Notes under the pieces: generated by a model
What the model was told of the DNA's origin: nothing
What the model saw: only the letters and a program-made list of their open reading frames with translations
Databases searched by the model: none
Made by a program: the position numbers and the translations under genes
Source of the DNA: Lysobacter sp. MMG2
GTDB lineage: Bacteria > Pseudomonadota > Gammaproteobacteria > Xanthomonadales > Xanthomonadaceae
NCBI RefSeq assembly: GCF_016735495.2
Contig: NZ_JAERQY020000002.1
Coordinates: forward strand, 124,001-188,000
Reading direction: 5' to 3'
DNA length: 64,000 nucleotides
Shown here: one piece after another, positions 6,227 to 38,002 of the stretch
How positions within the stretch are numbered: position 1 is the stretch's first letter
Layout: each line of letters starts with the position of its first letter

Positions 6227-9214
6227 TCAGAAATCGACGGTCACCGTCAGCTGCGCATAGCGCGGCTGCTGGAAGCCTTCACCGAAGCCGAAGTTCGTAT
6301 TGATCACGCCGACGCTGGGCTGCAGGTCCTGGTCCACGCGCACTTCGCGCTGCTCGTTGAGCAGGTTGAAGATGGTGAACTTGATGCGCATGTCGGCGCG
6401 GTTGAAGCTCTGCAGGTACGTCACGCTGGTGCCCACGTCGTAGGTCCACGGCATGTCGCCGTAACCGCCACGCGGGGAATGCACGTACGTCGGCTGCGTC
6501 GTGTTGCAGTTCGCCACGCAGATGAAGTAGCTGTGGTACTTCTTCCGATCGTACGGATTGCCCACGCCGAAGCCGGTGATCGGACCACCCGAACTGACGT
6601 CGAGCGTTGCGCCCACCTGCCAGTGTTCGTTGAACGCATAGGTGCCGCGCAACTTGAGCTGGTGCTCGCGGTTGTTGGCCAGCGGGCCGTCGCCCATGAA
6701 GTTCACCCACGGATCGTCGAAGTTCTCAGTGCGCCCCGTGTCGCCGAAGTTGGTGTCGGAGTTCACCGGACCTTCGGCGTTGCCCTCGCTCTTGGACCAC
6801 GTGTAGGACGCATTCATCGCCCACTTCTCGTCCCAGGCGCGATCCAGCTGCAGCTCGATGGCCTTGTAGGTGCGCTTGGGCTTTACCCAGCCGCGTTGGC
6901 CGAGGTAGTTGCCCCGCGAGTCGATCAGCGCCCAGCCTTCCTTAGCGGTGTCCACGGTCACCCAGCCGTCGTTGTCGCCGTCGCAGTTGGTATCGCCCCA
7001 AACGGTGACCTTCTCGCCCGGATTTGCCATTACCCAGCCGATGTAGCCGTCGCGACCGCATGCGCCGGTCGCGGTGATCTCCATGTCGTCGATCGCGCGA
7101 TGCAATTTGCGGTAGATGCCGCGCACGCCCCATGACCACTTTTCGCCGAGCATCTGCTGGAAGCCGAGGATTGCCTCGTCCTGGTAGACCGAATCCAGAT
7201 CGCGGTCCACTTCCGAGCGCAGGTCGCCGACCGTACCGTCGCCCTGCGAGACGTCCACGCCACCGATCTGCGGCCCCAGCCGCGGCACGGCGTATGGGAC
7301 GCCGTTCAGCTCACGGACTTCCCAGCCGTCGAAGGCATAGTAGGTGCGCTGATCGAGCAAGCCGCCAGCCTGCTTGATGTTGATGACGTTGGCCACCGGC
7401 AGGTAGTAGCGGCCGACGTTGCCGAACAGCTTCATCGTCGCGTTGCCGCCGATATCCCAGGCGAAGCCCAGGCGCGGGGCCCACATGTCGTCCATCTGGA
7501 TGTAGGTCTTGCCGTCGCCGTCCTTATTGTCGAAGGACTCGTTGCGGATGCCGATGCTCAGCAGCAGGTTGTCGGTGACCGACCAGCTGTCTTCCAGGTA
7601 GAACGCGGTGTTGGTGCTCTCGAACGTGCCGGCCACTTCGTTGCGGCGCGCACGCACGTAGCCGGAGTAGCCCGCCGGAACCACGCCGCCTGGCGGGTTC
7701 GGGATCGACGTACCCGGACCACCCACGTACACGTTGTAGAACAACGCGCCTGGACCGGCGTAGTACTGCTTGTGGTCGGAAGTGTTGATCTCGTGGTCGA
7801 CGCCGAAGCGCAGCAGGTGGTCGCCGATCGACCATTCGAAGTCCGCGCGGGTCTGTTCGCGCGTGTCATCGCGGTTGAACACGGTCGAGTTCGTACTACA
7901 GCCCAGTTGCACCCCGCCCGGAGGAGCCGGGAAAGCCGACTCCTTCTGCACGCGGTTGCACTCCAAATCGAGCATCGACCGGGTGAAGGCTTCGCGGTGG
8001 TTCTCGCCGTACATCAGCTTCATGGAGAAGTCCGGCGTGAAGTTCGATGCCCAGGTCAACGCCCAGTTGTCGCCGCCGGTGTCGGTGTAGATCTCGTTCT
8101 GCTTCTGGCCGACTTCGTTGGTGGCCAGGTCGTAGCTGAAGACGGCGCCGGTGTTCTCGTCCTTGTTCGAGAACGCCATCAGGCTGAGGATGTTGTTGTC
8201 GGTGACGTACCAGTCGAGCGTGCCGCCCCAGAACCCGTTGCCGGAATTGTTCTTGGTGATCGTGCGACCCAGGTCGTCTGTGTTGGTCGGCTCGTAGTCA
8301 CGCAGCTCGTACAGGCCGAAGAAGAACAGTTTGTCCTTGATCAGCGCGCCCGAAGCCCACACGTCCAGGCGGGTGTCGGAGTAGTCGTCCTGACTCTGTG
8401 CAAGGTACAGATCGCCGTCGGCGTCGTACTTGTCCTTCGCCGAGGACTGCCACGCACGCGGTTCGAAGCTCAGCTCGGCTCCGGCGTGGAAATCGTTGCT
8501 GCCCGAGCGCGCCACGGTGTTGACCACGCCGCCGGTCGTGCGCCCGAACTCGACGGAGTAGCCGCCGGTCTTCACCTGGAACTCCTTGTAGAACGAGAAG
8601 GGCGCTTCGGAGAAGCCGTTGCGGTTGTAGAAGTCGGTGACGTTGAGACCGTTGATGTAGAACGCGTTCTCCGCCACCGACGAACCGCCGAAGGAGATGC
8701 CGCCGAAGGAGGCTTCGCCCTTGGTGACGCCGGGTGCGAGCAGTGCGACCGATGCGAGATCACGGTCCACCGGCAGGCGCGCCACTTCGGTGCGCGTGAG
8801 CGTCATCGAGGTTTCGGTGGACGTCACGTCCACCATGGGCACGATGCGCGAACCCACGACCTGTACCGCCGCGAGGTTGACGGCGCCGTCGCCGCCCAGA
8901 TTCACCGTGGTCGCGCTGCCCATCGACACCGCGACTTCGACTGATTCTCCCAGCGGTTCGCCGTTGCGCGTCGCCTGCAGGCTGTAGTTGCCCACCGGCA
9001 GCTGCGAGATGCGGTAGTTGCCGCGCGCGTCGGCGGTGGCCGAACGCGTAAGGCCGGTCGCGATGTTGGTGATGGTGATCTGGTCGCCCTGTGTGGCGCG
9101 GCCCACGACTGCGCCGCTGACCGCCTGTGCGGTGGCCACCATCGGCACCATCGATGCTATGCACGCGCCTAGCGCGATACCTAGTGTCGCCTTGCGAAAC
9201 GCCCTGCCGCTCAT
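6227..9214 (-). CDS. TonB-dependent receptor, Oar-like, with N-terminal carboxypeptidase-regulatory-like domain
   Basis: This is a 995-residue outer-membrane protein. It has a signal peptide (residues 1-30, ending VATAQA), then a CarboxypepD_reg/Cna-B-like domain of about 70 residues (GLTRSATADARGNYRIS), then a plug starting near VVGSRI and a beta-barrel ending in the aromatic TVDF. Oar-like receptors are abundant in Xanthomonadaceae and import unknown, often peptide or glycan, ligands with TonB energy. GAGGGGACGAGGGG precedes the ATG. The gene follows a transglutaminase-fold gene by 26 bases and is closed by a terminator. One barrel loop carries an acidic repeat, GDTNCDGDNDGW (about 6960-7000), that resembles a calcium-binding loop. 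The ligand is not predictable. Confidence 0.9.
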   Translation of the reverse strand: MSGRAFRKATLGIALGACIASMVPMVATAQAVSGAVVGRATQGDQITITNIATGLTRSATADARGNYRISQLPVGNYSLQATRNGEPLGESVEVAVSMGSATTVNLGGDGAVNLAAVQVVGSRIVPMVDVTSTETSMTLTRTEVARLPVDRDLASVALLAPGVTKGEASFGGISFGGSSVAENAFYINGLNVTDFYNRNGFSEAPFSFYKEFQVKTGGYSVEFGRTTGGVVNTVARSGSNDFHAGAELSFEPRAWQSSAKDKYDADGDLYLAQSQDDYSDTRLDVWASGALIKDKLFFFGLYELRDYEPTNTDDLGRTITKNNSGNGFWGGTLDWYVTDNNILSLMAFSNKDENTGAVFSYDLATNEVGQKQNEIYTDTGGDNWALTWASNFTPDFSMKLMYGENHREAFTRSMLDLECNRVQKESAFPAPPGGVQLGCSTNSTVFNRDDTREQTRADFEWSIGDHLLRFGVDHEINTSDHKQYYAGPGALFYNVYVGGPGTSIPNPPGGVVPAGYSGYVRARRNEVAGTFESTNTAFYLEDSWSVTDNLLLSIGIRNESFDNKDGDGKTYIQMDDMWAPRLGFAWDIGGNATMKLFGNVGRYYLPVANVINIKQAGGLLDQRTYYAFDGWEVRELNGVPYAVPRLGPQIGGVDVSQGDGTVGDLRSEVDRDLDSVYQDEAILGFQQMLGEKWSWGVRGIYRKLHRAIDDMEITATGACGRDGYIGWVMANPGEKVTVWGDTNCDGDNDGWVTVDTAKEGWALIDSRGNYLGQRGWVKPKRTYKAIELQLDRAWDEKWAMNASYTWSKSEGNAEGPVNSDTNFGDTGRTENFDDPWVNFMGDGPLANNREHQLKLRGTYAFNEHWQVGATLDVSSGGPITGFGVGNPYDRKKYHSYFICVANCNTTQPTYVHSPRGGYGDMPWTYDVGTSVTYLQSFNRADMRIKFTIFNLLNEQREVRVDQDLQPSVGVINTNFGFGEGFQQPRYAQLTVTVDF

Positions 9215-31378: not shown

Positions 31379-33136
31379 ATGAACCGCACGACCCTTGCTC
31401 CCACGCTGTTGTTCGCTGCGGTGATCGCCGCGCTGGCCGGCTGCCGCAGCACGTCCGATCCGGCCCAGCAAGCCGACGCCGAAGCGCGCGCCACGCGCGA
31501 AGAGGCATACAAGCGCCAGGCCAAGGCCATTGCGCCGCCGACGGAGCCGGCGACGCTGGATCGGGTCGAGATCTCCGGCAGCCGGCTCGCCGACCAGGCC
31601 CAGTACGCCCCGCCGGCTTCGCCGCCGGCGCCGATGGCGCTTCGCGAATCGGCCGCTGCGGTGATGCTGGTACGCCCGGCTCCGATGGCCGCTCCAGCCA
31701 ACACCGAGAAGTACGCGCAACGCACCGACAACCCCGTGCAGCGCGCCGCCGAGCAGCCCGTCTCCACGTTCTCCATCGACGTGGACACCGGCAGCTACGC
31801 CAACGTGCGCCGCATGTTGAACGACGGCGAACGACCGCCCAGCGACGCCGTGCGCGCCGAGGAGTTCATCAACTACTTCGACTACGGCCACCCCGCGCCG
31901 ACCACGCGCGAGACGCCGTTCCGCGTCACCACCGAACTCGCACCCGCGCCCTGGAACGCGCAGCGTCAGCTGCTGATGATCGGCATCAAGGGCTATGACG
32001 TTCCCAAGGCGACGCTGGCACCGGCGAACCTGGTGTTCCTGATCGACACCTCCGGCTCGATGCAGGATCCCGACAAGCTGCCGCTGGTGAAGCAGGCGCT
32101 GCGCCAGCTGGTGCCGCAGCTGCGCGCGCAGGACCGCGTGTCGATGGTGGTCTACGCCGGCAGCGCCGGACTCGTGCTGCCTCCCACGCCGGGCGACCAC
32201 CACGGCGAGATCCTCGCCGCACTCGACCGCCTGGAAGCCGGCGGCAGCACCAACGGCGGCGACGGCATCCGCCTGGCTTATGCGATGGCGAAGCAGAGTT
32301 TCGTCGAAGGCGGCGCGAACCGCGTGATCCTCGCCACCGACGGCGATTTCAACGTCGGCACCGTGGATCAGAACGCGCTGGAAACGCTGGTCTCCGAACA
32401 GCGCAAGAGCGGCATCGCGCTGACTACGCTCGGATTCGGCACGGGCAACTACAACGACGAGATGGCCGAACGCCTGGCCGACGTCGGCGACGGCAACCAC
32501 GCCTACATCGACAGCGTGCGCGAGGCGCGCAAGGTGCTGGTGCAGCAGATGGGCGGCACGCTGCTGACGATCGCGCGCGACGTGAAGATCCAGGTGGAGT
32601 TCAACCCCGAGCAGGTCGCCGAGTACCGGCTGATCGGCTACGAGAACCGCATCCTGCAGCGCGAGGACTTCGCCAACGACAAGGTCGACGCGGGCGATAT
32701 CGGCGCGGGCCATCAGGTGACCGCGCTGTACGAGATCACGCCGGCCGGTTCGGCCGCGCAACGCATTGAACCGCTGCGCTACGGCGCGAAGGCGACGCAG
32801 GCGGACAAGTCCGGCACGGGCGAACTGGCCCACCTGCGCCTGCGCTACAAGCTGCCGGGGCAGGACAGCAGCCGCCTGATCGAAACGCCGATCCTGGCCT
32901 CGACGCTGACGCGTACACCGAGTCCGTCGCTGCGCTTCGCCAGCGCCGTCGCGGGCTTCGCCGACGCGCTGCGCGGCGGCGAGCGCATGGACGGCTGGAG
33001 CTGGGACGCGATGATCACCACGGCACGTGGCGCGCGTGGCGACGATCCGCGCGGGGAGCGTTCGGAGCTGATCCAGTTGATGGATGCGGCGCGTCAGCAG
33101 TCCGCGGGCGATGAGCGCGTGGGCATCCGGCAGTAA
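31379..33136 (+). CDS. yfbK: VWA-domain lipoprotein, YfbK family
   Basis: The protein has 585 residues. The lipoprotein signal has lipobox LAGC near residue 22. Residues about 35-70 carry EEAYKRQAKA and then TLDRVEISGSR, a segment shared with the anti-sigma-like protein at 36980. The YfbK N-terminal region (STFSIDVDTGSYANVRRML) leads into a VWA domain (about 215-390) with a complete metal site, DTSGSM and later ATDGDFN, and a C-terminal YfbK-type domain (LAHLRLRYKLPG, FASAVAGFADALR). VWA domains bind proteins through a metal ion. It would face the periplasm. GGAG precedes the ATG by 7 bases. Its partner is unknown. Confidence 0.88.
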   Translation: MNRTTLAPTLLFAAVIAALAGCRSTSDPAQQADAEARATREEAYKRQAKAIAPPTEPATLDRVEISGSRLADQAQYAPPASPPAPMALRESAAAVMLVRPAPMAAPANTEKYAQRTDNPVQRAAEQPVSTFSIDVDTGSYANVRRMLNDGERPPSDAVRAEEFINYFDYGHPAPTTRETPFRVTTELAPAPWNAQRQLLMIGIKGYDVPKATLAPANLVFLIDTSGSMQDPDKLPLVKQALRQLVPQLRAQDRVSMVVYAGSAGLVLPPTPGDHHGEILAALDRLEAGGSTNGGDGIRLAYAMAKQSFVEGGANRVILATDGDFNVGTVDQNALETLVSEQRKSGIALTTLGFGTGNYNDEMAERLADVGDGNHAYIDSVREARKVLVQQMGGTLLTIARDVKIQVEFNPEQVAEYRLIGYENRILQREDFANDKVDAGDIGAGHQVTALYEITPAGSAAQRIEPLRYGAKATQADKSGTGELAHLRLRYKLPGQDSSRLIETPILASTLTRTPSPSLRFASAVAGFADALRGGERMDGWSWDAMITTARGARGDDPRGERSELIQLMDAARQQSAGDERVGIRQ

Positions 33137-33346: not shown

Positions 33347-36259
33347 TCAGCCCGTAACAGCCAACCGCAACGGCACCACGTTCGTGCGCTCGGCCGGGTA
33401 ACCGAACAGGTAGCCCTGCCCGTAGGTACAGCCCAGCTCGCGCAACGTCGCGCGCTGGGCTTCGTTCTCCACCCCTTCGCCGATGGTGTGGATGCCCAGC
33501 GTGCCGGCCAGCGCCTGGATCGCGCGCACCACCGCCACGCTTTCAGGCTGCGTATCGCCGACCAGGCCCGAGACGAAACTCTGGTCGATCTTCAGGCATT
33601 CGATCGGGAAACGGTGCAGGTACGACAACGCGGAGAAGCCGGTGCCGAAGTCGTCCAGCTGCGCCAGCACGCCGTGGCTGCGCAAGGTGCGGAGCATGCG
33701 CAACGCGCGCGGGACGTCGTCCAGCAGCGCGACTTCGGTGATCTCGATGCGCAGGCGGTGCGGGTCCGCGCCGGCCTGGTCGATCATGCGCAGCAGGCGG
33801 TCGGCGAAGTCGGACGAACGGAAATGCCGCGGCGAGACGTTGACCGAGATGTAGCCCTCGCCACCGCGCGCCAGCTCTTCCATGACCTGCCGGTAGAGGA
33901 TCCAGTCGACTTCCTCGATCAGCGCGCTGTCTTCGCCCACGCCGATGAACTCGCTGGGCGTGAGCAGTCCGCGGCGCTCGTGGCGCCAGCGCAGCAGCGC
34001 TTCGTGGCCGATCACGCGATGGTCGTCCAGGCGCACGATCGGCTGGTAGAACGCGACGAAGCCGTCGCCGTTGATGGCGCGGCGCAGGTCGGCTTCCAGG
34101 TCGAGGATGCGCACGGCTTCCTCGCGCATGGCCTCGTCGAACACGGCGCAACGGTCGCGGCCGGCGGACTTGGCGCGGTACATGGCCGCGTCCGCGTCGC
34201 GCAGCAGCTCGGCACCGGTGCGGTAACGCGGGTGCCACAGGGCGATGCCCAGGCTCGCCGACGGGAACACTTCACGACCGGCGATCCAGCACGGCTCGCC
34301 GAGCGCGCGCAGCACACGCTGCGCAAGGTCTTCGGCCACCTGCGGGCCGTCGATGTCTTCGATGAGGATCGCGTATTCGTCGCCGCCCAGGCGCGCGACG
34401 GTGTCGCCGGTGCGCACGGCGTCGACGATGCGGCGTCCGGTTTCGATCAGCAGTTCGTCGCCGGCCGAATGACCCACCGAGTCGTTGACCAGCTTGAAGC
34501 GGTCCAGGTCGAGGAACAGCACCGCGAAGGTGCGCTGCGAATCGCTCTGTGCACGCGCGATGGCGTGCGAGAGACGGTCCAGCAGCTGGCTGCGATTCGG
34601 CAACCCTGTGAGCGCGTCGTGCGTGGCCTGGTGGGTGAGCTGCTGCTCCACGCGCAGGCGCTCGCCGATCTGCGACAGCAGCTCCGCGTTGGCCTGCGCG
34701 AGTTCGCGCGTACGCGATTCCACGCGCTGCTCGAGTTCCGCATGCGCGGACACCAGGCGGTCCTGCGACTGCTTGCGCGCCAGGCCGATCGAAATATGGT
34801 GCGCGACGAAGGTCAGCAGTTCCTGGTCGCGCACGCTGAAGCTGATCGCCGGCGAGTAGCTCTGCACGGTGATCACGCCGACCACCGACTCGTTGCGGAA
34901 CAGAGGCACGCCGAGCCAGCAATGCGCCAGCGAACCGCGACTGCGCACCAGCCCCTGCGACTCCAGCGCGGCGATGCGCTTGCGGTCGGCCAGCAGCGGG
35001 CGGCCGCGCGCGATCACGTACTCGGTCAGGCCCGAGGTGAGGTTGCGCGTCACGCGCACGGCGTCGCGTTCGTCGATGGAGTACGGGAATTCCAGCCGCT
35101 CGCCGTCCTCGGTGAGCAGCGCGATGTAGAAGTTGCGCGCGTACAGCAGGTCGCTGACGACGTCGTGCACCTGCGTGTAGAAACGCTCCAGCGTCTCGGA
35201 GGTGATCGACAGCTCGGCGATGCGGAACAGCGCGCGTTGCAGGCGCTCGGCGCGCTGGCGCTCGATGATCTCCGCCTGCAGGTCGCGGTTGCTCAGCTGC
35301 AGCGCCTGGGTGCGTTCCTCGACGCGGCGTTCGAGTTCCTCGCGCGCGTGGAAGCGGTCCAGCGCGGTGAGGATGTGCTGGGCGACGAAGGCCAGCAGCG
35401 CGCGTTCCTCTTCGCCGTAGACATCCGGGCGGTCGTAGCTCTGCACCACGATCGCGCCGCAGATGCGCTCATCGCGACGCATCGGCACGCCGAGCCAGTC
35501 CTCGCTGTCCGGCCCGTGCTGGATGTCGCGCGCCACGCCCAGGCGTTCGCGGATCTGTGCGGAAGGGCCCTGCAACGGCTCGCCGTGGCGCAGCAGCGCG
35601 ACGGTCACGCTGTTGGGCATCTCCTCGATGGGGATGTCGCGCTCGGGCTCGGCGACGTAGGTGTCGCGCTGGTCGGCGAAGTACAGGAAGCGCAGGCTGT
35701 CGCGCACGTCGTCGTACAGCACGATGTACAGGTTGGCCGCGTACATCAGGCCGGCGACGACGGTGTGGATCCGGCGCAGCATGTCGGCCAGTTCCAGGTC
35801 CGAACCGGCCAGGTCGGCGATCTCGAACAACGCCTGCTGCAAGCGCTCGGATTTCTCCAGCGATTCGGCGCGGGCCAGCGTGCGCAGGGCGACGAGGTGG
35901 GCGCCGATGACGATTCGCGCCAGCGCCACCCACATGGTCCGGGTTTCCGCGCCGATCGGGGCCGGCAGCTGCGCGGCGATGGCCACGCGCACGCCTTCGT
36001 TGGTGGTCCAGCAGGCTTCGATGCGCTGGGAATGCTGGCCAAGCGGATCGCGTCCGAGCAGCGATTCGGCCCGGTTGGCCAGCGCGGTGGTCGCGCCCAT
36101 GGAGGCCGAACCGGCGACCGCGCCGCCGTGGGGGTCGCGCCACAGCACCGCCACCTCGGAACCGGCCGGCAGGGCTTCCTGCAGGGTGTCCGCGAGCGCG
36201 TCCCGCCCGCTTCGGGCGTCGACGATTCTCACGGCCTTTGGCCTGGTTCGTGTGGACAC
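33347..36259 (-). CDS. GAF-GAF-GGDEF-EAL cyclic-di-GMP enzyme
   Basis: The protein has 970 residues, cytoplasmic, with no membrane segment. Two GAF domains (about 150-300 and 350-505), each followed by a coiled coil, precede a GGDEF domain with ARLGGDEYAIL near 625 and an inhibitory site RTGD five residues before it. An EAL domain follows with HEALLRW near 753, ISVNVSP, IEITE, LDDFGTGFSALSYL, LKIDQSFV and IGEGVEN. Both active sites look intact, so it could make and break cyclic di-GMP under control of ligands bound by the GAF domains. The start is GTG at 36259; TATCCT at 36291 may be its -10 box. It diverges from the sigma factor operon. Confidence 0.92.
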   Translation of the reverse strand: MSTRTRPKAVRIVDARSGRDALADTLQEALPAGSEVAVLWRDPHGGAVAGSASMGATTALANRAESLLGRDPLGQHSQRIEACWTTNEGVRVAIAAQLPAPIGAETRTMWVALARIVIGAHLVALRTLARAESLEKSERLQQALFEIADLAGSDLELADMLRRIHTVVAGLMYAANLYIVLYDDVRDSLRFLYFADQRDTYVAEPERDIPIEEMPNSVTVALLRHGEPLQGPSAQIRERLGVARDIQHGPDSEDWLGVPMRRDERICGAIVVQSYDRPDVYGEEERALLAFVAQHILTALDRFHAREELERRVEERTQALQLSNRDLQAEIIERQRAERLQRALFRIAELSITSETLERFYTQVHDVVSDLLYARNFYIALLTEDGERLEFPYSIDERDAVRVTRNLTSGLTEYVIARGRPLLADRKRIAALESQGLVRSRGSLAHCWLGVPLFRNESVVGVITVQSYSPAISFSVRDQELLTFVAHHISIGLARKQSQDRLVSAHAELEQRVESRTRELAQANAELLSQIGERLRVEQQLTHQATHDALTGLPNRSQLLDRLSHAIARAQSDSQRTFAVLFLDLDRFKLVNDSVGHSAGDELLIETGRRIVDAVRTGDTVARLGGDEYAILIEDIDGPQVAEDLAQRVLRALGEPCWIAGREVFPSASLGIALWHPRYRTGAELLRDADAAMYRAKSAGRDRCAVFDEAMREEAVRILDLEADLRRAINGDGFVAFYQPIVRLDDHRVIGHEALLRWRHERRGLLTPSEFIGVGEDSALIEEVDWILYRQVMEELARGGEGYISVNVSPRHFRSSDFADRLLRMIDQAGADPHRLRIEITEVALLDDVPRALRMLRTLRSHGVLAQLDDFGTGFSALSYLHRFPIECLKIDQSFVSGLVGDTQPESVAVVRAIQALAGTLGIHTIGEGVENEAQRATLRELGCTYGQGYLFGYPAERTNVVPLRLAVTG

Positions 36260-36428: not shown

Positions 36429-36983
36429 ATGAATGCGGGTGCGGACACCGACGATGACGTGCTGATGCTGGCCTGGGCGGCCGGCGACGCGGCGTCGTTC
36501 GAGCTGCTCTACGCCCGCCACCGGGGCCCGCTGTACCGTTTCCTGCTGCGCCAGCTGCGCGATCCGGCGCTGGCGGACGAGTTCTTCCAGGACGTCTGGC
36601 AGCGCGTCATCGCCGCCCATCATGGCTGGAAACCCGAGGCCGCATTCAGGACCTGGCTCTTCCGCATCGCCCACAATCGCCTGGGCGACCATTGGCGCGG
36701 CCTGAAGCACCGCCCGCCCGCGCCGGACGATGCCGACGAACGCGCCGCGCGCGTGCCCGACCCGACCAGCCCGGAGCGCGAACTGTCCGAGTTCGAACAG
36801 CGCCGCCGCCTGCAGCTGGCCATCGAAGAGTTACCTGACGAGCAGCGCGAAGTGGTGCTGCTGCGCCTGGAGCAGGAACTGAGCCTGGAGGAGATCGGCG
36901 CCATCACCGGCGCCGGCCGGGAAACCGTCAAGTCGCGGCTTCGCTATGCGATGGACAAGCTGCGCGCGAGATTGAACGAATGA
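36429..36983 (+). CDS. ECF-type RNA polymerase sigma factor
   Basis: The protein has 184 residues from 36429; an ATG at 36354 would add 25 unlikely residues. Region 2 (about 15-80) shows FELLYARHRGPLYRFLLRQL, FFQDVWQRVI and FRTWLFRIAHNRLGDHWR. Region 4 (about 125-180) shows LPDEQREVVLLRLEQELSLEEIGAITG followed by the recognition helix TVKSRLRYAMDKLR. It directs RNA polymerase to a small set of promoters. The next gene, an anti-sigma-like membrane protein, starts inside its stop codon (ATGA), the usual sigma/anti-sigma arrangement. Confidence 0.93.
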   Translation: MNAGADTDDDVLMLAWAAGDAASFELLYARHRGPLYRFLLRQLRDPALADEFFQDVWQRVIAAHHGWKPEAAFRTWLFRIAHNRLGDHWRGLKHRPPAPDDADERAARVPDPTSPERELSEFEQRRRLQLAIEELPDEQREVVLLRLEQELSLEEIGAITGAGRETVKSRLRYAMDKLRARLNE

Positions 36984-38002
36984 ACCGCTTCGACGACGAA
37001 CCGCTGAGCCCGGAAGAACGCGCGCTGGCCGACCGCCTGGCGCGGCTGGGTCCGCACGACGGCCCGTCGGCGGCGCTCGACGCGAAGATCCTGGCCGCCG
37101 CGCACGCGGCCGTGGCGCCTGCGCCGTCGCGCCGCCGTCGCTGGCTGGGGCTGGCGGCGCTGCCGGGCGGCCTCATCACGGGCGCAGGCATGGCCGCGGC
37201 ACTGGTGCTGGTGGTCGGCGTGGTCTGGCAGCTTCGGCCGTCCGACCCGGCCCCCAGGCCCGCGCGGAGCGAAGGCGTCGCCTACGTTTCGGCCGAGATC
37301 ATCCAGCGCAAGCAGCCCGTCGTGGCGCCGCCTCCGCCCGCCGAGGCCGCCGTTGCCAGGGCGCTGGAGCCGGCTCCGATCCAGCGCCGAGTCGCATCGG
37401 CGCGAAGCGAGGCCGCACCCGCGATCGCCAGTGCCCCGCCGCCCATGCCGGCCGCAGCACCGGCGCCGAAAATCATGGCGACCGTCGGACCTGACGAACA
37501 GTCCCACTACCTCGACGAGGCCATCATGCAGGCGCCCGCCCCTGCGGCGTACTCGTCGGCGCCTGCGGCAGCGGCACCTGCCGCACCGGCCCCGCCGGCC
37601 GCCCTGTCGAGCGAAGCGGCTGCGGACGCCGCCCGCCGCGAGGCGTTCGGCCTGAAACGGGCACGCCAGGAAGAGGCCTACAGCGAGACGACGGCCGCCG
37701 CCGAATCACGCGCGGCCGCGAAAGCGAGCGCCGAATCGGCGACGCTGGATCGTATCGAGGTGTCCGGCAGCCGCGTGAAGAACGACGCCTCGCTGATTTC
37801 CGCCGTGGTGCTGGCCGACATTCCGCTCGACGAGGATGCCCGACTCGAAGCCAAGGCCTGGCTCGAACGCATCCGCGAACGCCGCGCCACCGGCGACATT
37901 GACGGCGCGCGCGCGAGTCTGGCGCGCTTCCGCCAGGTCCATCCGGATGTGCGCGTGCCGCGCGACCTGCGCGCCCTCGCCCAGCCTCCCGCGACGCGAT
38001 GA
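36980..38002 (+). CDS. Anti-sigma-like single-pass membrane protein with TonB-plug-like motif
   Basis: The protein has 340 residues. A short cytoplasmic region (1-58), one membrane helix (about 65-85, GMAAALVLVVGVVW) and a long Ala/Pro-rich periplasmic region (about 90-215) are followed by a helical part with RQEEAYSETTAAAESRAAAK, TLDRIEVSGSRV near 255, and a C-terminal domain ending VPRDLRALAQ. No classical zinc anti-sigma motif is visible in the cytoplasmic part. Coupling to the sigma gene by ATGA supports an anti-sigma or signal-sensing role. TLDRIEVSGSR resembles the start of TonB receptor plugs and recurs in the VWA protein at 31379. Confidence 0.7.
   Translation: MNRFDDEPLSPEERALADRLARLGPHDGPSAALDAKILAAAHAAVAPAPSRRRRWLGLAALPGGLITGAGMAAALVLVVGVVWQLRPSDPAPRPARSEGVAYVSAEIIQRKQPVVAPPPPAEAAVARALEPAPIQRRVASARSEAAPAIASAPPPMPAAAPAPKIMATVGPDEQSHYLDEAIMQAPAPAAYSSAPAAAAPAAPAPPAALSSEAAADAARREAFGLKRARQEEAYSETTAAAESRAAAKASAESATLDRIEVSGSRVKNDASLISAVVLADIPLDEDARLEAKAWLERIRERRATGDIDGARASLARFRQVHPDVRVPRDLRALAQPPATR

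Follow-up and report, generated by a model that had tools for sequence, protein, structure and literature searches.

The window, a stretch of 64,000 nucleotides from Lysobacter sp. MMG2, encodes a YfbK-type VWA lipoprotein of 585 amino acids (31379..33136, + strand). The protein displays a signal peptide, a lipobox (LAGC, by sequence), a disordered linker and then the vWF_A, VWA and YfbK_C domains, all of which score over the Pfam cut-offs (PF12450, 1.8e-38; PF00092, 2.3e-19; PF12034, 1.5e-67) and place it in the YfbK family. A Foldseek search with its structure model returned general VWA folds, with the archaeal ArnA/ArnB and inter-alpha-inhibitor heavy chain 1 among the top matches; TM-scores were low across the full length. 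An ECF sigma factor of 184 amino acids (36429..36983, + strand) is recognized by Pfam Sigma70_r2 and r4 and by NCBIfam NF009166, over its cut-off, and its stop is overlapped by 4 bases by the start of a gene for a 340-residue protein (36980..38002, + strand) that we call anti-sigma-like from its position and its predicted membrane helix. This helix, at residues 69-84 (37184..37231, + strand; an AlphaFold helix of hydrophobic sequence), together with the sigma domains and the 4-base overlap, fits the layout of an ECF sigma/anti-sigma pair, in which the sigma gene adjoins or overlaps one for a membrane protein whose N-terminus is cytoplasmic; the anti-sigma activity itself is putative. The protein belongs to no named family: Pfam gave only a sub-threshold TPR_14 match, NCBIfam gave none, and a FecR domain was found in neither scan. 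The single predicted membrane helix is followed by a long Ala/Pro-rich stretch, the motif described below and, directly after it, a small helical, predicted periplasmic C-terminal domain (residues 270-334; 37787..37981, + strand; pLDDT mostly 84-97), which contains the conserved sequence WLxRIRxRR...VPxDLR. Foldseek found no match for this model at E<=0.001. Between the VWA and sigma genes lies, on the opposite strand, a gene for a GAF-GAF-GGDEF-EAL protein (33347..36259, − strand; Pfam), which is probably outside the VWA/sigma system because the VWA and sigma genes adjoin in four relatives (G046, G023, G044 and G050). A TonB-dependent receptor is encoded about 22 kb from the VWA gene (6227..9214, − strand; an open reading frame with a Plug match at G000:C3:132525-132815, window 8525-8815).

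The initial annotation had noticed a motif shared by the two envelope proteins, and this motif is real. The VWA copy, ATLDRVEISGSR, lies at 31550-31588, within PATLDRVEISGSRL (residues 57-70 of the + strand frame 31379-33136, window 31547-31588), and the anti-sigma-like copy, ATLDRIEVSGSR, at 37739-37777, within SATLDRIEVSGSRV (residues 253-266 of the + strand frame 36980-38002, window 37736-37777). Both are in frame and have 10 of 14 residues in common. The DNA, also described as very similar, is indeed close at the motif (34 of 42 bases alike), but barely above what the peptides lead one to expect (28.4 ± 2.5 of 42, P=0.016, with codons drawn at random from both genes' own usage). A single DNA repeat as the source of both copies was rejected, since the likeness is about that given by the peptides and codon use. 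The tetrapeptide EEAY, counted earlier as part of the motif, does not belong to it: it occurs in one of 30 VWA linkers and one of 51 anti-sigma frames, each time the window's own, and its presence in both window proteins is a coincidence in Ala/Glu-rich sequence. When all six frames of the window were scanned with a loose motif, three places were returned, namely the VWA lipoprotein, the anti-sigma-like protein and the TonB receptor at 6227-9214. The latter carries, as had been claimed, a comparable segment, LAAVQVVGSRI (8843..8878, − strand; E=1.18 with a profile built from receptors only), upstream of its Plug match. What had been taken for the start of the plug is, however, the position of the TonB box, directly before the Plug match in five receptors scanned.

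The motif has the form of the TonB boxes of its own genome. TxLDxVxVTG is the form taken by the box in all 30 receptors fetched from this genome, where it stands just before the Plug domain. The five receptors scanned were found with a 12-row motif profile whose rows included both window copies, and in these the Plug begins 17-19 residues past the start of the motif fragment. A second profile and a scoring matrix were built from the 30 receptors only. Over the genome, at E up to 10, this profile gave 38 matches; 31 lie just upstream of Plug matches, and 30 of these 31 had built the profile. Among the non-Plug matches are the anti-sigma-like segment ATLDRIEVSGSRV (37739..37777, + strand; E=0.023) and the VWA linker segment ATLDRVEISGSRL (31550..31588, + strand; E=2.1). 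The former match is clear; the latter is weak by itself, so the case for the VWA protein rests on its orthologues. The matrix scores were 25.5 and 16.5, respectively, compared with 18.8-39.4 for the receptors, which puts the VWA segment just below their range; its core, VEISGSR, departs from the strict box pattern given below. When six segments were compared with sets of 30, 10, 10 and 10 receptors, the best match lay in the segment's own genome for four of them, clearly so only for the window pair. Five non-Plug matches remain: one in a frame of 237 residues (E=0.003), one in a frame of 146 residues that runs antisense to a longer frame (E=0.02) and three in short frames (E from 1.2 to 6.1). 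The first of these (L353; match at G000:C3:579926-579961) has a receptor-like start and the TonB box TDLDAVTVTGTR, after which receptor likeness is soon lost; from its sequence it looks like a broken receptor gene, a receptor remnant. We consider it very likely that the segments of the two window proteins reflect TonB-box ancestry or mimicry.

Both copies lie in exposed segments that are predicted to be disordered. In structure models of modest confidence (mean pLDDT 63 and 64 for the two models), pLDDT is below 50 for residues 49-133 of the VWA linker and, by AlphaFold, for residues 258-268 of the anti-sigma-like protein. Pfam detected no Plug or barrel family in either protein at E up to 0.1, and no signalling or FecR domain. 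In E. coli, the residue at position +2 of the lipobox decides between the inner and the outer membrane. This residue is Arg rather than Asp in the window lipoprotein, which by the E. coli rule predicts an outer-membrane location, and Asp occurs at +2 in none of 127 lipobox-bearing YfbK linkers.

The box recurs in orthologues, although conservation is partial. With the receptor-only matrix at a score of at least 6, a threshold that was our choice, the wider family showed it in 23 of the 34 genomes scored for the VWA protein, with 11 lacking it, and in 21 of the 46 scored for the anti-sigma protein, with 25 lacking it. The VWA linkers of G057 (5.1) and G003 (2.6) look like worn boxes and were entered as absent. 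The VWA search had matched 58 genomes, 57 of which were read (G051 is cut by a contig end); the anti-sigma search had matched 49, of which 46 were scored (G026 and G030, both fragmentary, and G059 were left out). Counted by sequence at the same threshold, the box was found in 20 of 29 VWA linkers (0.11 in shuffles) and in 22 of 51 anti-sigma frames (0.76 in shuffles); in the latter set, two genomes are repeated and three entries are fragments. Several of the copies match a receptor box letter for letter; one example is TTLDRIEVTGSRIK, from the G025 anti-sigma protein. In both proteins the box is kept amid a poorly conserved linker, and between the membrane helix and the C-terminal domain no block is conserved more clearly in the 19-row anti-sigma alignment.

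A wider sample comprised 184 YfbK linkers of Proteobacteria, taken from relatives, from one order that looks alphaproteobacterial and from a draw across the phylum. They stem from a set of 189 loci; four loci are repeated, a few genomes contribute a second copy, and E. coli is represented. The strict box [IVL]xV[TS][GA][STN]R occurs in 46 of them; shuffling gave 0.046 on average (a maximum of 1 over 500 rounds) and the reversed linkers gave none. A looser box occurs in 63, against 2.9 in shuffles and 1 in reversed linkers. These comparisons treat related sequences as separate. By family, over 175 genomes including E. coli (families being known by code), the strict box was found in 16/33 (f1), 6/21 (f79), 8/18 (f47), 9/16 (f81), 3/12 (f60), 2/4 (f3), 1/5 (f8) and 1/1 (f14). 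It was absent from f54 (10 genomes), f42 (7), f17 (6; one loose box), f58 (5), f7 (5), f11 (3) and the single E. coli. The YfbK family can thus dispense with the box: E. coli YfbK, f58 and the rhizobium-like f54 are without it, as are the 11 VWA and 25 anti-sigma genomes counted above. For the phylum-wide draw, 62 of 64 genomes were read (L148 and L153 were without anchor), and for a further genome set 67 of 106, none of family f82. Among the 62, 18 genomes have at least 20 Plug domains, and 7 of these carry the loose box; of the 44 with a smaller number, 2 do (Mann-Whitney P=0.0002, a statistic that ignores kinship). The other 11 of the 18 receptor-rich genomes are without a box. Beyond the Proteobacteria sampled here, TonB-box-like segments may also occur in YfbK proteins of Bacteroidota.

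The genes of the two proteins are linked as well. The order VWA-sigma-anti-sigma, with the genes together, is found in G046, G023, G044 and G050, and sigma-VWA-anti-sigma in G052; a few kilobases separate the VWA gene from the sigma and anti-sigma genes in the window, in L. arvi (L007) and in G057. Outside these relatives, the order VWA-sigma-presumed anti-sigma was seen in both contexts read for f8 and in the one read for f17, and in G107, of another family, both proteins carry a box (VWA, GKIVVTGNR; presumed anti-sigma, GEITITGSR). In the single contexts read for f54 and f58, sigma comes before a YfbK protein that has a membrane-helix-like stretch of its own. At two alpha-type loci (L257:4827-6941 and L258:4358-6568) the YfbK gene follows an ECF sigma gene and such a stretch stands ahead of the VWA part; Pfam found no known anti-sigma domain in these rhizobium-like proteins, and our guess is that anti-sigma and VWA are fused in them as one protein. 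A phmmer search of the remaining alpha contexts (L249-L255) returned no such sigma factor. From these contexts, sigma linkage and the TonB box are separable.

The two boxes tend to occur together. Of 30 genomes with both genes, 17 have both boxes, 9 neither, 2 the VWA box only and 2 the anti-sigma box only, i.e., both or neither in 26 (Fisher P=1.8e-4, kinship ignored); the anti-sigma box is present in 19 of 30 genomes with a VWA gene versus 2 of 16 without (P=0.0015, kinship ignored). On the VWA tree, though, the two box traits change only 7 and 6 times, and a tree-aware test was not significant: it yields 3 to 4 independent pairs on well-supported branches, of which 2 to 3 agree and on average none disagrees (sign test, median P 0.5). 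The direction fits, and the power is too low. G007 and G036 have an anti-sigma homologue with a good TonB box, and at the cut-off applied their genomes gave no VWA match.

Likeness to the genome's TonB boxes, a disordered position, recurrence in orthologues and gene linkage can all be read at the level of sequence and predicted structure. We regard it as probable that the segment is a TonB box outside a receptor, and that such TonB-docking peptides tie the ECF sigma/anti-sigma/VWA system to TonB. The higher frequency of the box in receptor-rich genomes and the receptor-plug-like continuation of some segments, described below, also speak for this reading. The earlier proposal that TonB or a receptor could dock at the segment, linking sigma factor and VWA protein to outer-membrane transport, agrees with this as far as the receptor-like boxes in divergent orthologous linkers and the adjoining VWA, ECF sigma and anti-sigma genes of several relatives go; nothing in this analysis tied the motif to one particular receptor.

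The main rival is that the box is a relict of recombination, in which 5′ pieces of receptor genes were copied into insertion-tolerant linkers and are now without function. Of 12 segments picked by eye, 8 go on to resemble receptor plugs beyond the box (P<0.05), most strongly in the anti-sigma protein of L017 (0/1000 shuffles), and the slight excess in window DNA likeness over codon expectation (P=0.016), the frequent absence of the box in orthologues and the larger number of donors in receptor-rich genomes would also fit. Neither window copy continues in this way (P=0.52 and 0.84), nor do L246 and L024. A Plug domain inside the linkers was rejected: despite the hand-picked plug-like segments, Pfam detected none in L249, L245 and L017. 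A functionless relict would have to be reconciled with a box that is kept while the adjoining linker diverges, with the presence of both boxes or neither in 26 of 30 genomes (kinship ignored), and with copies in other families that change letters and keep the pattern. We consider this explanation unlikely. More improbable still is that the strand docks elsewhere, with a VWA, anti-sigma or receptor domain binding it by strand addition, or a common third binder other than TonB. Two linked proteins have the same peptide, and PMC11658791 describes pairing of the TonB-box strand with the signalling domain in FpvA as well; the peptide nevertheless matches receptor TonB boxes and not a separate motif, and neither window protein has a detectable signalling or FecR domain. 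Chance likeness in Ala/Pro/Glu linkers, which are low in complexity and did produce the EEAY coincidence, is hardly credible given the shuffled and reversed sequences (strict box 46/184 versus 0.046 and 0; receptor-only matrix 20/29 versus 0.11; related sequences counted as separate), and low complexity, named at the outset as what would undo the motif, is contradicted by them. The second condition named there, lack of conservation among orthologues, likewise turned out in the motif's favour, with the absences counted above.

If the segments are TonB boxes that serve a TonB, we infer a series of steps comprising outer-membrane location, TonB binding, force or competition, and an effect on sigma. 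The VWA/YfbK protein would probably be held by its lipid in the outer membrane with its box on a flexible tether, and the anti-sigma-like protein would cross the inner membrane with its box on a flexible stretch just before the C-terminal periplasmic domain. Energised TonB would engage the VWA protein at the outer membrane; the anti-sigma box would compete for, or be pulled by, the same TonB, and the ECF sigma factor would be released or held according to TonB engagement. The box quite likely binds a TonB; that this engagement alters sigma activity is a tentative suggestion. A bolder version, which we hold to be rather doubtful, makes TonB a direct input to transcription: energised TonB would pull on or occupy an ECF anti-sigma protein that has its own TonB box, the partner being a VWA lipoprotein tethered to TonB, and the cell would read the state of TonB or the proton-motive force without a ligand-specific receptor, the box having arisen or been renewed from receptor genes in several lineages.

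Known systems resemble parts of this arrangement. According to PMC11658791, the TonB box is present in all TBDTs and in colicins imported through TonB. The segments found here are like those of receptors and group B colicins in being a short strand in a disordered segment with the pattern of this genome's receptors, but they occur in a VWA lipoprotein and an anti-sigma-like protein without a Plug or barrel match. Contacts between TonB, transducer and anti-sigma in cell-surface signalling are described in PMC11637429. FecR/FoxR-type signalling and the window have in common an ECF sigma factor, an anti-sigma-like protein of the inner membrane and, possibly, an input from TonB; in the window, however, the anti-sigma-like protein is without a FecR domain, and the box is in the anti-sigma itself and its VWA partner and not only in a receptor. 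E. coli-type YfbK has three Pfam domains in common with the window lipoprotein, whereas the E. coli protein (L110) has a lipobox-type N-terminus and no box. For proposed vWA force transducers, PMC12204202 describes a vWA fold as YfbK-like and proposes a connection with Tol/Ton-type motors; they carry a membrane helix with an SHLS motif, where the window protein has a predicted lipobox, LAGC, and the TonB-box-like segment, and the term ‘TonB box’ has 0 occurrences in the available text of that paper. Unlike these transducers, the VWA protein would be made a client of TonB by its lipobox and TonB box. A search of the full-text literature, mostly without subscription journals and preprints, brought up no report of TonB boxes in YfbK/VWA or anti-sigma proteins, and nothing pairing the TonB box with von Willebrand or vWA.

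Because two neighbouring non-transporter envelope proteins and many of their relatives carry a receptor-type TonB tag, the data suggest a further role for TonB, in acting on a stress-signalling system or reporting to it. If this is true, cells tag their own non-transport proteins with a TonB box and TonB gains further clients, YfbK proteins acquire a function that can be tested, and TonB could have a direct line into an ECF sigma system. Several TonB-like proteins of the genome could be partners of the boxes: TonB_C gave 12 matches in it, some in long frames of up to 1078 residues.
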